Shown piece by piece: positions 7,837 to 12,000 of a DNA stretch of 64,000 bases. The position numbers and the translations under genes are program-made. Under the pieces are notes generated by a model, which made no database searches, had not been told where the DNA came from, and saw only the letters and a program-made list of their open reading frames with translations. This stretch comes from Pseudodesulfovibrio cashew (lineage in GTDB: Bacteria; Desulfobacterota; Desulfovibrionia; Desulfovibrionales; Desulfovibrionaceae), in the NCBI RefSeq assembly GCF_009762795.1, contig NZ_CP046400.1, forward strand, positions 2,705,501 to 2,769,500, in the 5' to 3' direction. Within the stretch, counting starts at the first letter, position 1; each line of letters starts with the position of its first letter.

Positions 7837-9021
7837 TTAAAAATTAACGAAATGCTTTTTGGCGTCAAGGACCTTGAGCAGGTAGCGCCGCGTTTCATCG
7901 TGGGGCAGCCTGGTGCGCAGGGTGGAATAGACCTGGGCGGGGGGTAGCGAGTTGATGCGGTCCGCTGCTTCGTCCCTGTCCCTGCTAAAGGTTTTGAGCA
8001 CCCCACCTGCGCCGCCGTTGTATCCGGCGATGACGCAGTACTCGCGTGACACGGGATTGTTTATTGCTCCCAGGAAACGGGTGTCGAGCAGGTGCAGGTA
8101 TGCGCTGCCATAGAGGATGTTCGTGGATGGGACAAAGAGTTTGTCTCGCCGAGGCGTGCCGTCATGCCCATTGAGGAAGCGGTAGACGTCGCTTCCGGCC
8201 GTGGACGGCACCACCTGCATGAGCCCGACGGCCATGGCCTGGCTGACCGCGAACGGGTTGAAGTCGGATTCCACCTTCATGATGGCGAAGATGAGATTGG
8301 GGCTGATGTCGAAACGCTTTGCGTTGGCCAGGACGGTGTCTTGGTATTTCCTTGCCCGGATGTCCAGGTGGTCCCTGACCATATCGAAGGAGACGGCGCG
8401 GGCGGTCTTGCCGTCGACCTCGCGCGAGCTCAGCCGCGTGGCGATGAGATAGTCGGCGAACCGCTCGGCCCGCCATGCCCAACGGATATCCTTGCCCTCA
8501 TGATCCTTGACCTCGCCGAGCAGGAAGGGCGTCTCGCCGAGCTTGACCGTCTTGGCGGAGTAGAGGTCCACGGCCCGAGGATCGCCGGGGGTGAGCAATG
8601 TAGTGATAATGGCGTTTTTCAGGGTGGCGAGCGGTGCCTTGTCGTCCACGGTCTCAACGGTAATCCGGCCCGTGTCGAAGTCCACGCTGGCGCGGGAGAG
8701 GTAGTTGTCGGTGTATTTGACGTATTGCTTGGGCGCGGGCAGTTGGACGTCGTCCTCGCCCCAGACCGAAGCCACCGCCTCGATGAAGGCGTTGACCGTC
8801 TCTGTGAAGCGTTTGATGTCGCTCCCGAGGGCTGCCGGATTGGTCGCGTAGCCGATGGCCTTGTCGCGCGCCAGGGCCTCGGCTGCGGCCGCAGGGCTGC
8901 CCGTTGCCGCAGCTCTGGCGATGCGCACGGCATCATACCGCGAGCAGGACCCGAGGGCCAGGGCGAGGCAGAGCAGGAGGCATGTTCTCCAAGTGTGCAA
9001 CACTCCATTACTCCTTGACAT
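7837..9021 (-). CDS. mltC: Membrane-bound lytic murein transglycosylase MltC
   Basis: A 394-residue lipoprotein. The N-terminal signal ends in a lipobox LALGSC at about residues 22-27. The middle matches the MltC N-terminal domain (DUF3393). The C-terminal third is a goose-lysozyme-like SLT domain with the catalytic Glu in IFAIMKVESDFNPFAVS and downstream GLMQVVPSTAG, YGSAYLHLL and VIAGYNGGAGG. It cleaves the MurNAc-GlcNAc bond of peptidoglycan from the periplasmic face of the membrane or outer membrane. It is first of a two-gene unit with the PilZ gene. The shared upstream region carries TTGACA at 9015, relevant to the divergent HPt gene. Confidence 0.88.
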   Translation of the reverse strand: MSRSNGVLHTWRTCLLLCLALALGSCSRYDAVRIARAAATGSPAAAAEALARDKAIGYATNPAALGSDIKRFTETVNAFIEAVASVWGEDDVQLPAPKQYVKYTDNYLSRASVDFDTGRITVETVDDKAPLATLKNAIITTLLTPGDPRAVDLYSAKTVKLGETPFLLGEVKDHEGKDIRWAWRAERFADYLIATRLSSREVDGKTARAVSFDMVRDHLDIRARKYQDTVLANAKRFDISPNLIFAIMKVESDFNPFAVSQAMAVGLMQVVPSTAGSDVYRFLNGHDGTPRRDKLFVPSTNILYGSAYLHLLDTRFLGAINNPVSREYCVIAGYNGGAGGVLKTFSRDRDEAADRINSLPPAQVYSTLRTRLPHDETRRYLLKVLDAKKHFVNF

Positions 9022-9125
9022 TTGCTTGGGCGCTGGTGACTATATAGAAAGGTTAAGAGGGTTTCACGAGAAATTCAAGCTGGTGAAAATCCTGGCACAA
9101 TGGCGGTGCACAGCAGGAGGGTATT

Positions 9126-9437
9126 ATGGATGGTCGAAACCCTATTGTCGAAATGATCGACCCCGCCCTGGAACAATTGATGGAACGGTTTTTCGACAGT
9201 TCTCACAAGGACGTCGATCAGATGAGGATGTTTCTCGAGGCCGAGGATTATTCCGGGCTCGCAAGACTCGGCCATACGGCCAAGGGGACCGGTTACGGCT
9301 ACGGCTTTCGCGGCATGGGAGACATCGGATGCCATCTCGAGACGGCGGCTCGCAATGAGGATCGACAGGGATGTGCGGAGCATATTTCGCGCATGAAGCA
9401 TTACCTGGACAACGTCAAGGTTGAATTCCGCAAATAA
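9126..9437 (+). CDS. HPt-domain phosphotransfer protein
   Basis: A stand-alone 103-residue HPt domain. The phosphorylatable histidine lies in LARLGHTAKGTGYGYGF (about residue 49), the usual HxxKG pattern, and the rest is a helical bundle. AGGAGGG precedes the ATG. A TTGACA at 9015-9020 with a GACTAT or CTATAT box 17-19 bases later could be its promoter. No kinase or regulator is adjacent; the nearest hybrid kinase is at 41.8 kb. Stand-alone HPt proteins relay phosphate between hybrid kinases and response regulators. Confidence 0.85.
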   Translation: MDGRNPIVEMIDPALEQLMERFFDSSHKDVDQMRMFLEAEDYSGLARLGHTAKGTGYGYGFRGMGDIGCHLETAARNEDRQGCAEHISRMKHYLDNVKVEFRK

Positions 9438-9460
9438 CGGCACGGCGATGCCGGCAAGGA

Positions 9461-9496
9461 AACGGGTGGGCGACGCGATCGCCCACCCGTTTTTTG
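9461..9496 (+). terminator. Rho-independent terminator
   Basis: A perfect 13-bp stem (9461-9473 with 9479-9491) and a 5-base loop, continuing into TTTTTT on the plus strand. It ends the HPt transcript and separates it from the convergent ADH synthase gene. Confidence 0.88.
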
Positions 9497-9518
9497 CTGG
9501 TATTCGATTTCGGCCGGG

Positions 9519-10310
9519 TTACAGCAGCTCCATGGCCGCGTCCACGTCCCAGTCTTCATGCACGACCTTGTTGAGCGCCGCCACGATCTTGGCCGGGCTT
9601 TTGTGCTGGAAGATGTTCCGGCCCACGGACAGACCGGAGCCGCCCGCCTGGATGGAGTCGTAGACCATCTGCACCAGGTCGCGGTCGCTGTCGAGCTTGG
9701 GGCCGCCCGCGATGACCACGGGTACGCAGCAGCCGTCCACCACGCGGGAGAAGGTTTTGGGGTCGCCGGTGTAGTTGACCTTGACGATGTCAGCGCCCAG
9801 CTCCACGCCCACGCGCGCGCAGTGGGCCACGACTTCGGGGGCGTACTCGTCTTTGATCTTGGGGCCTCGGGCATACATCATGGCCAGGACGGGCATGCCC
9901 CACTCGTTGGCTTCGGAGCAGACCGCGCCGAGGTCCGCCAACATCTGCGTCTCGGTGGCGTCGCCGAGGTTGATGTGCAGGGAGACCGCGTCCGCGCCGA
10001 GCTTGAGCGCATCGGTCACGGTGCCGACGAGGGATTTGGCGTTGGGAGTGGGGGAAAGGGAAGTGGAGCCGGACAGATGGATGATCAGCCCGATGTCCTT
10101 GCCGCCGGCACGATGGGAGCAGCGGGGGATGCCCTTGTGCATGAGCGTGGCGTTGGCCCCGCCCTCAGCCACCTGGTTCACGGTGTCACGCAGGTCCACC
10201 AGCCCGTAGATGGGGCCGACGGTGACGCCGTGGTCGATGGGGACGACGATGGTGCGTCCGTTGTTGCGGTTCATGATCCGTTCCATTCTGATCGCTTTAC
10301 CCAAATGCAT
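9519..10310 (-). CDS. 2-amino-3,7-dideoxy-D-threo-hept-6-ulosonate (ADH) synthase, DhnA-type aldolase
   Basis: A 263-residue class I aldolase of the DhnA family. Key stretches are TIVVPIDHGVTVGPIYGL near residue 20, ADAVSLHINLGD near residue 105, and ADIVKVNYTGDP near residue 175, containing the presumed Schiff-base lysine. The family is best known from Methanocaldococcus AroA', which condenses an amino-acid semialdehyde with a sugar phosphate as first step of the DAHP-independent route to 3-dehydroquinate. Sulfate reducers of this type are known to use that route. No other aromatic gene is adjacent. Expression appears to be controlled by a Phe leader peptide and attenuator immediately upstream, which supports the aromatic assignment. 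Start ATG 10310 has CGAGGAGA upstream. Confidence 0.85.
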   Translation of the reverse strand: MHLGKAIRMERIMNRNNGRTIVVPIDHGVTVGPIYGLVDLRDTVNQVAEGGANATLMHKGIPRCSHRAGGKDIGLIIHLSGSTSLSPTPNAKSLVGTVTDALKLGADAVSLHINLGDATETQMLADLGAVCSEANEWGMPVLAMMYARGPKIKDEYAPEVVAHCARVGVELGADIVKVNYTGDPKTFSRVVDGCCVPVVIAGGPKLDSDRDLVQMVYDSIQAGGSGLSVGRNIFQHKSPAKIVAALNKVVHEDWDVDAAMELL

Positions 10311-10348
10311 GACTGTCTCCTCGTGTTGTTGCGGCCGGGGTGCGGCCC

Positions 10349-10384
10349 AAAAAGAAAGAGGCCGCGGACTTTGCCCGCGGCCTC
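10349..10384 (-). terminator. Attenuator terminator of the ADH synthase leader
   Basis: Ten-bp perfect GC-rich stem (10384-10375 with 10367-10358 on the minus strand) and a seven-base loop, followed by TTTCTTTTT. It lies between the Phe-rich leader peptide and the ADH synthase start, 48 bases before the ATG. Its 5' arm can instead pair with leader sequence 10419-10428 (GCGGTCTTGG against CCAAGAGGCCGC, with a two-base bulge), giving an antiterminator. Confidence 0.85.
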
Positions 10385-10408
10385 TTGGTTGTTCTCTGTA
10401 CTGTTTAA

Positions 10409-10489
10409 TTAATGCACACCAAGACCGCAGGCGTTCCTGTTAAAATAAAAGCTAAAAAAGAAAAAGAAACGGGCGGTAATGTTGTGCAT
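10409..10489 (-). CDS. Phe-rich leader peptide of the ADH synthase attenuator
   Basis: A 26-codon open frame reading MHNITARFFFFFSFYFNRNA with six more residues to TAA. Seven of codons 8-16 are Phe and one is Tyr, as in enterobacterial pheL. It stops 25 bases before the terminator hairpin, and its last codons (Cys-Gly-Leu-Gly) supply one arm of the antiterminator. A consensus -35 lies just upstream. The expected start of transcription is only a few bases from the ATG and no ribosome site is seen, so translation may be leaderless. When charged tRNA-Phe is scarce, a stalled ribosome should favour the antiterminator and raise synthase expression. Confidence 0.8.
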   Translation of the reverse strand: MHNITARFFFFFSFYFNRNACGLGVH

Positions 10490-10497
10490 GCGTATCA

Positions 10498-10525
10498 ATT
10501 AGCCGAATGGAACGTGTGGTGTCAA
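10498..10525 (-). promoter_or_regulatory. Sigma-70-type promoter for the attenuated transcript
   Basis: TTGACA at 10525-10520 (perfect -35), a 16-base spacer, and GCTAAT at 10503-10498 as the best -10; TAATTG two bases on is an alternative. It lies in the 70-base gap after ridA and points into the leader peptide. Confidence 0.6.
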
Positions 10526-10559
10526 GTGGCGATTGCGTAACGGCTTGAATTTCGATTCG

Positions 10560-10940
10560 TTATTTTGCCAAGGCGATGCACTTGAGTTCCACCAGACCGC
10601 CAAGGGGGAGCCCGCCGACCTCAATTGCGGCCCGAGCCGGTTTGTGATCCCCGAAGAATTCGGCATAGATGGCGTTCAGTTCCGCGAAGCGGCCCATGTC
10701 GGTGACAAAGACGTCTACGGACAGGACCTTGTCCAGGCTTGAGCCGCCTTCCTCCAGGATGGCCTTGAGGTTGGACAGGGCCTGCCGGGCCTGGGCCTCG
10801 AAGCCATTGGCCAGTTTCTCTTCGCCGGGAATGATGCCCAGCTGGCCGGACACATACAGGGAGCCGCCCGATTGGGTGGCTTGGGAATAGGGACCCACGG
10901 CGGCCGGTGCGTTGTCGGTGTGGATGAAGGAGATGGTCAT
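10560..10940 (-). CDS. ridA: RidA family reactive intermediate deaminase
   Basis: A 126-residue RidA/YjgF protein. It begins MTISFIHTDNAPAAVGPYSQ, with the family's AVGPYSQA motif, then LYVSGQLGIIPG and a C-terminal block ARAAIEVGGLPLGGLVELKC that carries the conserved arginine and glycines for imine/enamine binding. It hydrolyses 2-aminoacrylate-type intermediates in the cytosol. Start ATG 10940 has GGAGG at the right spacing; a longer frame upstream is out of family range. It follows the nucleoside-recognition gene by 19 bases and is probably co-transcribed with it. No terminator is seen after it before the Phe attenuator, so some readthrough into that leader is possible. Confidence 0.88.
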   Translation of the reverse strand: MTISFIHTDNAPAAVGPYSQATQSGGSLYVSGQLGIIPGEEKLANGFEAQARQALSNLKAILEEGGSSLDKVLSVDVFVTDMGRFAELNAIYAEFFGDHKPARAAIEVGGLPLGGLVELKCIALAK

Positions 10941-10959
10941 GATGCCTCCTTGTTCCGGG

Positions 10960-11928
10960 CTATGCGTCGGCCCAGAGGTAACGGTTGCGTACGGGGGCCG
11001 GAAGTCGGCGCACAATTTGGACTATGCCGGCCATGGCCAGGATGGAAAAGCCCAGCCGCGCCCAGAGGATGCCGGAAATGTGGCCGCCCATGAGCGTGAT
11101 GAGCAGGGTATCTTCGATGAGCGAATGGCACAGGCCCATGAGGGTCAGGGAATAGAAGATGTCCTCTTTGCCCACGTTGCCGGACTTGGCTTCGCTGATG
11201 ATCAGGCCGCCGCCGTAGGAGAGCCCCATGGTCAGGCCGATGACCGTGATGGCCGAAGCCTTGGGGCCGATACCGATCACATTGAGCACGGGCCGCAGTA
11301 TCCGGTTGAGCAGGTCGATGACCCGGATTGCGTGCAGCAGGCGCATGACCATGAGCAGGGAGAGGATGATGCAGAAGATCGAAATCAGGTTTTTGGCCTG
11401 GCCCAGAGCCCAGGCCGCCAGCGACGGATCGGCCGCTCCCAGTTGGTCCGCCTGGAACAGCAGAGTGGCCTGCCCCTGCAGGGTGCCTGTGGACGAATAG
11501 ATGAGGTGCAGCGCCCAGGCGAAGACGAACGCACCCGTTAGACGGGCAAGGGCCTGGAAAAGGAAGCGTACCCCGGAGCGCTTGGCGATGGCGCACTCCA
11601 CGGGCAGGCCGTGGGCCACAAGCATGAGTACACCGAGCACGGTGGCTTGTGCCGAAGTCAGCGGATTGTCGCCGATGAGGGAAGCCAGGACGATGAGCCC
11701 GGTATAGATGTTGTTGATGATGGCCGTGGCCCAGACCAGGCCCATCTCGGCGGGTAAGCCGACCAGGCTCATGATCGGCTCCAGCGGCCAGGCAAGGTAC
11801 TGGATAACGTCCATCTCCTGGAGCGCCTTGACCGCGATCAGGATGGGAACCATGACCTTGAAGAGTTCCATGGATGCGGTGAAGGCATCCTTGAAGAGCG
11901 TTTTGGCAAAATGAATAATGGTGTTCAT
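10960..11928 (-). CDS. Nucleoside-recognition (Gate) domain membrane protein
   Basis: A 322-residue membrane protein with about eight helices and two repeats of the Gate/nucleoside-recognition type. The helix start MGLVWATAIINNIYTGLIVL and the later LTMGLSYGGGLIISEAK occupy similar places in each half. Relatives include spore-maturation SpmA/B-like and ferrous-iron-cluster-associated proteins, whose substrate is unknown. It lies just downstream of feoB but beyond a good terminator, so it needs its own promoter. ATG 11928 gives the usual family length, though the ribosome site is weak. Confidence 0.75.
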   Translation of the reverse strand: MNTIIHFAKTLFKDAFTASMELFKVMVPILIAVKALQEMDVIQYLAWPLEPIMSLVGLPAEMGLVWATAIINNIYTGLIVLASLIGDNPLTSAQATVLGVLMLVAHGLPVECAIAKRSGVRFLFQALARLTGAFVFAWALHLIYSSTGTLQGQATLLFQADQLGAADPSLAAWALGQAKNLISIFCIILSLLMVMRLLHAIRVIDLLNRILRPVLNVIGIGPKASAITVIGLTMGLSYGGGLIISEAKSGNVGKEDIFYSLTLMGLCHSLIEDTLLITLMGGHISGILWARLGFSILAMAGIVQIVRRLPAPVRNRYLWADA

Positions 11929-12000
11929 ACGTTGGCCGTCCGGGAGGGACGATAGGGTATCAATGGGAAAAAGGGAAGCGGTCCCGACCGTAAAGCATAC

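Follow-up and report, generated by a model that had tools for sequence, protein, structure and literature searches.

The window, by which we mean the whole stretch of 64,000 nucleotides analyzed here from Pseudodesulfovibrio cashew, encodes on its minus strand a predicted 2-amino-3,7-dideoxy-D-threo-hept-6-ulosonate (ADH) synthase preceded by a compact set of putative regulatory elements (Table 1). Read in the direction of transcription, these are a TTGACA promoter box, a weak -10 element, a short open reading frame rich in phenylalanine codons, a terminator, a ribosome site, and the start of the gene at 10310. An earlier reading of this DNA, made from the letters alone (the sequence-only reading), had described a 26-codon leader with seven Phe codons and one Tyr codon in codons 8-16, and this is what the sequence holds: the AUG begins at 10489, the stop codon ends at 10409, codons 8-12, 14, and 16 are Phe, and codon 15 is Tyr. 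The TTGACA box it named is also present, and the box is kept at a near-fixed distance in relatives. It had further proposed a 10-bp terminator with a U-rich tail; both terminator and tail lie between leader and gene, but the stem is 12-14 bp long. The gene assignment was likewise correct, as the protein (paralogue A) passed the equivalog model TIGR01949 with 396 bits against a cut-off of 299.45. It aligns with MJ0400 (2qjg) over residues 2-261, and the two have in common the DH, Y, and K residues, which we take to be catalytic; enzyme activity is a prediction from these matches. Directly upstream on the same strand is a RidA-type gene (TIGR00004, window 10560-11015), and a RidA-like reading frame is also found upstream of many ADH synthase orthologues.

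Table 1. Elements of the putative attenuator and its target gene, in window positions.
Feature	Position	Strand	Basis
-35 box TTGACA	10520..10525	(-)	sequence
Probable -10 element GCTAAT, weak; 16-nt spacer	10498..10503	(-)	sequence
Leader peptide ORF, 26 codons, MHNITARFFFFFSFYFNRNACGLGVH, probably leaderless	10409..10489	(-)	sequence; Phe run conserved in orthologues
Region 1: protector 5' arm, codons 1-9	10465..10489	(-)	fold; pairing across relatives
Region 2: protector 3' arm and antiterminator 5' arm (GCCTGCGG, 10432-10425; CTTGG, 10423-10419)	10412..10438	(-)	fold; comparison
Region 3 (CCAAG, 10388-10384; CCGCGGGC, 10380-10373): partner of region 2 (antiterminator) or region 4 (terminator)	10373..10388	(-)	fold; comparison
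Intrinsic terminator: stem 10386-10375 / 10367-10356 (region 4), U-rich tail TCTTTTT 10355-10349	10349..10386	(-)	sequence; comparison
Ribosome site GAGGAG of the ADH synthase gene	10322-10317	(-)	sequence
ADH synthase (2-amino-3,7-dideoxy-D-threo-hept-6-ulosonate synthase), paralogue A	9519..10310	(-)	TIGR01949

Folding of the leader RNA gave three competing structures, with energies of -24.2 kcal/mol for the pairing of regions 1 and 2 (1:2), -26.0 kcal/mol for 2:3 (region 1 masked, region 4 absent), and -29.0 kcal/mol for 3:4. The sequence-only reading had seen that 10428-10419 could pair with 10388-10377 and thereby break the terminator stem; this pairing exists, and folding and comparison extend it to GCCTGCGG with CCGCGGGC. 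The 1:2 protector stem, which joins the start of the leader to its end, was absent from that reading and was found by folding. We propose that these elements form a ribosome-mediated transcription attenuator specific for phenylalanine that controls paralogue A, and we give this reading a probability of about 0.9. When Phe-tRNA is charged, the ribosome would pass the Phe codons, reach the stop codon, and cover region 2, and the 3:4 terminator would end transcription. When charged Phe-tRNA is short, the ribosome would stall at the Phe codons, of which 8-14 fit best, and mask region 1; region 2 would then pair with region 3, and the polymerase would read into the gene. A leader that is not translated would form the 1:2 protector, which would free 3:4 and stop transcription. 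With the earlier reading, we infer that the gene is under end-product control through the charging of Phe-tRNA.

The Phe-rich leader is conserved together with the gene. Among the 36 genomes of the genus, the type-A gene was matched in 33 (the others, G008, G014, and G020, are 81-87% complete), and a Phe-run leader precedes it at all 33 loci. The weakest of these leaders, in G011, has four Phe codons, and that of G015 is without the ACGL stretch; Pseudodesulfovibrio pelocollis (L159) also has a Phe leader. A scan that required a terminator after an aromatic leader recovered 31 of the 33 upstream regions, as opposed to 0 of 165 dinucleotide shuffles. The same scan missed 2 of 33 type-A, 3 of 34 type-B, 2 of 22 other-family, and 3 of 30 symporter regions (these classes are described below). 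Differences between type-A leaders at codon positions 1, 2, and 3 number 498, 591, and 754, which is a modest third-position bias, and the conserved reading frame leads us to predict that the leader is translated. The sequence-only reading had suggested looking for the Phe frame in close relatives, and there it is indeed conserved.

In 59 of the 60 genomes analyzed, P. cashew included, an ADH synthase was found at the model cut-off, and P. cashew itself encodes three (A, B, and C). Paralogue A is solitary, apart from the other genes of the pathway: a search within 1.5 kb detected no dehydroquinate synthase II at any of 30 type-A loci (L005-L034), nor at the named loci L155-L160 and L164, all of which have Phe leaders. 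The downstream sequences of L161 and L162 were too short for this count, and dehydroquinate synthase II is present near L163 and L165. Paralogue B (L002, L124; contig C1 from about 291450) has aro, phe, and trp genes downstream of it in the same orientation. Eight proteins of this cluster were profiled, B included and the frames between trpG and trpA excluded. Dehydroquinate synthase II, chorismate mutase/prephenate dehydratase, aroA, and trpG- and trpA-type genes scored above their cut-offs, and prephenate dehydrogenase-like and trpE-like genes were best matches below them. We infer that the cluster is one operon. In a study of Desulfovibrio hydrothermalis, ten clustered genes, most of them for aromatic amino acid metabolism, changed jointly with pressure (PMC4162548), which fits one operon and does not address attenuation. 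Paralogue B has a leader of its own, MKFNTSLPAYFTNFYFGYWYSRARGQGRGTL, also with a terminator. Paralogue C (L003, C1:1313159-1313941) shows no aromatic leader with terminator, and the scan found one at 0 of 17 loci of this class; a further locus fetched as C (L097, in G015) is type B by its leader and the tree, and is counted with B in the codon, peptide, and 2:3 pairing counts.

The leaders on these other copies read more than phenylalanine. A mixed Phe/Tyr/Trp leader is present at 34 of 34 type-B loci, and at the re-sorted L097 as well, and in other Desulfovibrionales families it precedes all 22 main copies and none of the five second copies. Every one of the 57 mixed leaders has at least one Trp codon and at least three Tyr or Trp codons, whereas 32 of the 33 type-A leaders are without Trp, and Tyr or Trp codons number at most two in every one of the 33. 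The mean content per leader is 6.8 Phe, 0.6 Tyr, and 0.03 Trp codons in type A, as opposed to 3.7, 3.4, and 1.6 in type B and 5.0, 3.2, and 1.1 in the other families. The leader ahead of the operon copy of the enzyme is a Phe/Tyr/Trp form of the same leader family. A Phe leader on A together with a three-amino-acid leader on the operon copy suggests that entry into the pathway is split between an isozyme that reports phenylalanine and one that reports all three amino acids. One could instead suppose that the leaders sense slowed translation in general and not the charging of particular tRNAs, since many adjacent aromatic codons could slow the ribosome in several kinds of starvation. We consider this unlikely because codon content splits by target, with Trp in 57 of 57 mixed leaders and in 1 of 33 type-A leaders, and because the symporter leaders of the genus, described below, are mainly Phe.

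The distribution of the two forms also bears on the origin of attenuation at this gene. The sequence-only reading had seen control by Phe-tRNA charging as having been placed on a non-homologous first enzyme. The attenuation stands, but it is no lone transfer of pheL-type control to this enzyme; Phe/Tyr/Trp leaders are widespread on the ADH synthases of the order and also occur elsewhere in the phylum. In a quick tree of 50 ADH synthases, which has long branches and open forks and leader labels set by hand, the 17 Phe-labelled rows form one group (SH-aLRT 88) among mixed-leader rows. In the tree it sits on the same side as the main copies from other families, and B and C are in another group. 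The grouping of Phe leaders among mixed ones suggests a specificity switch, and the Phe-only form looks derived from Phe/Tyr/Trp leaders. The count of changes depends on L163, which was labelled mixed and whose leader as read has one Tyr codon and no Trp codon; its T run exceeds that of L344 by one base. Separating Phe from the rest takes one change if L163 is mixed or omitted, and two if it is scored as Phe. A single switch to Phe is therefore likely but not certain. Phe-run leaders also occur on the ADH synthases of two Desulfovibrionales MAGs (L162 and L164) at 77% identity or less to that of the window, and the switch may for this reason predate the genus.

The sequence-only reading had also suggested looking for compensatory changes in the stems of relatives. 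For the 3:4 terminator, 97.7% of cells are paired across the 33 type-A sequences and four pairs have changed on both sides, a number reached by 4 of 500 shuffles. For the 2:3 antiterminator, 92.6% of cells are paired, as opposed to at most 51.5% in versions slid out of register; five pairs have changed on both sides, which 2 of 500 shuffles equalled and slid versions approached with up to four. Terminator and antiterminator thus both bear the suggestion out. The 1:2 protector is conserved as a pairing (80.8% of cells against at most 50.6% when slid), but its covariation is not above controls, as its three pairs changed on both sides were reached by 144 of 500 shuffles and by every slid version. 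Across 56 distinct mixed-leader sequences, the 2:3 pairing holds in 97.3% of cells (at most 52.9% when slid). Here 29 sequences have C-G and 26 have U-A at one pair (columns 124 and 211), with no mismatch among these 55 and one gap, and the covariation of the mixed set rests on this pair, mostly between the genus and other families. A version slid by +2 gave 23 cells changed on both sides against 26 unslid, though at 52.9% pairing. Within the type-B rows of the genus, the same pair is C-G in 30 and U-A in 4, with one gap. Column 211, which lies in region 3, has no partner in the terminator in 54 of 55 mixed sequences and yet matches region 2; the base therefore follows region 2 and not region 4, and its covariation with region 2, also within the genus, suggests that it is kept for the antiterminator.

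These comparisons speak to a second alternative, that the short frame encodes a small Phe-rich peptide with a function of its own, the hairpin being an ordinary terminator and the gene being expressed by readthrough or from another promoter. Such a product would be hydrophobic, and a leader peptide can act in trans, as in the case of peTrpL of Sinorhizobium meliloti described in PMC7298713. However, neither the length nor the sequence of the peptides is constant beyond the aromatic run and the part that gives rise to region 2, and one region-3 base follows region 2 even though it is unpaired in the terminator, which makes this alternative improbable. The conserved promoter box, Phe-coding leader, antiterminator, and terminator, together with an intact enzyme gene, instead confirm on comparative grounds that the attenuator proposed in the sequence-only reading is real.

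It had been suggested as well that the leader may be translated without a ribosome site, and comparison supports this. When aromatic content was the sole basis for choosing leaders, TTGAC was present 36-44 nt upstream of the AUG in all 32 type-A leaders so chosen; the remaining one, that of G011, is under the aromatic-content threshold. The distance is 36-40 nt in 34 of 34 type-B leaders and 35-40 nt in 21 of 22 other-family leaders, again with TTGAC not required. Of 118 leaders from four classes, 114 have TTGAC 35-40 nt upstream of the AUG, and TTGACA is perfect in 85 of 90, with the qualification that both sets required TTGAC 30-45 nt before the AUG and their distances are thus partly chosen. 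The best -10 elements over the 118 leaders mostly match three or four of six bases, and their distances to the AUG are largely set by the spacers allowed; a scan with a consensus promoter found nothing in window positions 9500-11500, the -10 element there being weak. Shine-Dalgarno (SD)-like 4-mers precede the leader AUG in 10 of 118 cases, as opposed to 107 of 118 for the structural gene, and they occur in 304 of 4500 shuffled upstream sequences. Given the usual promoter geometry, transcription would start at the leader AUG or no more than a few bases from it. The fixed spacing of TTGAC and the chance level of SD-like motifs together suggest that the leader peptide frame is probably leaderless.

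A second Phe leader of the P. cashew genome, MHINQNRFRFFFFFSFRFFRSACGLGVCA, is also followed by a terminator (L004 / L123, C1:3052264-3054201, minus strand). Downstream of it are genes for a symporter small accessory protein (NF045580) and an SSF symporter (PF00474). Of the 30 loci of this symporter, 28 have a Phe leader, and the genus leaders in this position have mainly Phe codons; at one of the two misses, in G020, the protein match starts from residue 51, and G020 has the leader on another contig. Among six further symporter upstream regions, G057 has a Phe leader and G045 a Phe/Tyr leader, G009 and one of the two in G031 have a model match with a Phe-coding stretch and no frame past the filter, and no leader was found in G040 or the other region in G031. 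It is a natural guess that this symporter is a candidate phenylalanine transporter, and the second Phe leader probably controls it.

A ligand-binding riboswitch or a T-box could also act as the sensor, with the frame being incidental, and would have the same layout of a terminator and alternative folds. Rfam includes an enterobacterial Phe leader family, and a search of window positions 9000-12000 with Rfam, including the T-box model and the leader families, gave no match at E values up to 1; on nine loci, nothing reached its gathering score. The best Rfam match on a leader was BjrC68 on a type-B terminator, at 30.2 bits against a gathering score of 39, which we regard as a generic resemblance to terminators. 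In view of the missing Rfam match and the conserved Phe run, we rejected the riboswitch and T-box readings as very improbable. That a T-rich stretch merely happens to read as Phe was also rejected, with a probability that is practically negligible: the run is of low complexity, and most of the eight matches to five Phe codons in the P. cashew genome (two of them overlapping) are not leaders, only the window leader and the symporter leader being attenuator-like, but the run is present in all 33 orthologues and the scan found none in the shuffles.

The Phe-specific attenuator that we favor is of a known kind. The enterobacterial pheL-pheA attenuator consists of a Phe-rich leader, alternative helices, and an intrinsic terminator, and senses Phe-tRNA. 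The window leader has the same parts and the same predicted sensing, but it lies upstream of a class I aldolase gene, that of ADH synthase, and not of pheA; it is probably leaderless, has no Rfam match, and has relatives that read Phe, Tyr, and Trp. Attenuation of pheA occurs in gammaproteobacteria according to PMC5343134. At S. meliloti trpL, the RNA 5' end is at the AUG of a 14-codon, Trp-specific leader frame, as described in PMC7298713. The leaders studied here resemble it in the position of the 5' end, which in our case is predicted from promoter spacing, and in acting by attenuation in an aromatic pathway, but they read Phe or Phe/Tyr/Trp instead of Trp. A further parallel is provided by AroF, AroG, and AroH of E. 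coli, which according to PMC5343134 are parallel DAHP synthases with feedback inhibition by different end products. The ADH synthases would likewise be parallel first enzymes tuned to different end products, but here the difference seen is in leader codons. An Rfam regulon survey that includes Desulfovibrionales as a row of its table was able to use attenuator models for His, Leu, Thr, and Trp only, and its authors suggested that such motifs may stem from gammaproteobacteria (PMC3766115). The regulation considered there is of the same kind as that proposed here. Among open PubMed Central papers, our searches turned up none that points to such leaders in Desulfovibrionales. What appears new is the target, sister leaders that read three amino acids, a leader peptide frame that is probably leaderless, and the likely switch in specificity. 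The DAHP-independent aromatic pathway gains a predicted control mechanism, and a candidate phenylalanine symporter can be named. The comparison also leads to the prediction that a leader reading several amino acids can become more specific through codon changes before one of two gene copies. The leaderless arrangement, if real, also makes one ask how a ribosome loading right at the 5' end would stay synchronized with the polymerase.

Leaders of this kind are also found on ADH synthases of the phylum outside the genus. An aromatic leader with terminator was detected in 25 of 40 upstream regions, as opposed to 0 of 200 shuffles; the 40 regions were fetched from the 63 matches listed, and 56 of 198 genomes had a match. 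By family, the scan found a leader in 6 of 7 regions from the same family and in 19 of 33 beyond it, with 15 of the 40 being without one. For 22 of the 25 leaders, TTGA is present 30-48 nt upstream in five and an SD-like 4-mer in 11 (one had no upstream sequence left); the leaderless arrangement is not general elsewhere in the phylum. The 2:3 complementarity of these 22 exceeds that of 95% of shuffles in 16, with region 3 picked by pattern and possibly wrong in some. Amino acid attenuators would thus be in regular use well outside the gammaproteobacteria, the group where they have classically been studied. We see roughly even odds that the isozyme logic of the first aromatic step in Desulfovibrionales lies in leader codons. 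A leaderless Phe+Tyr+Trp leader, which opens when any of the three is short, would sit on the operon copy, and a switch to Phe alone would have re-tuned the other copy. Together with the symporter, this would make up a small, repressor-free Phe regulon, with the leader family being old on this enzyme in the phylum.

Among the named loci L166-L234 (without L231), a leader is present at 8 of 68, and examples with a leader include Desulfonema magnum and Desulfoluna species. A search of the 60 genomes with our model R1 also gave matches away from the known targets, and 13 among those listed were read. Of these 13, 11 (E values of 2e-7 and weaker) have a terminator without an aromatic leader, and two have a Phe leader, namely the symporter leader of G020 and L332. 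The latter, in a relative (G015:C1 near 1024711), is another short Phe-run leader with a terminator, MQKTIATSFFFFTDLPRRARG.
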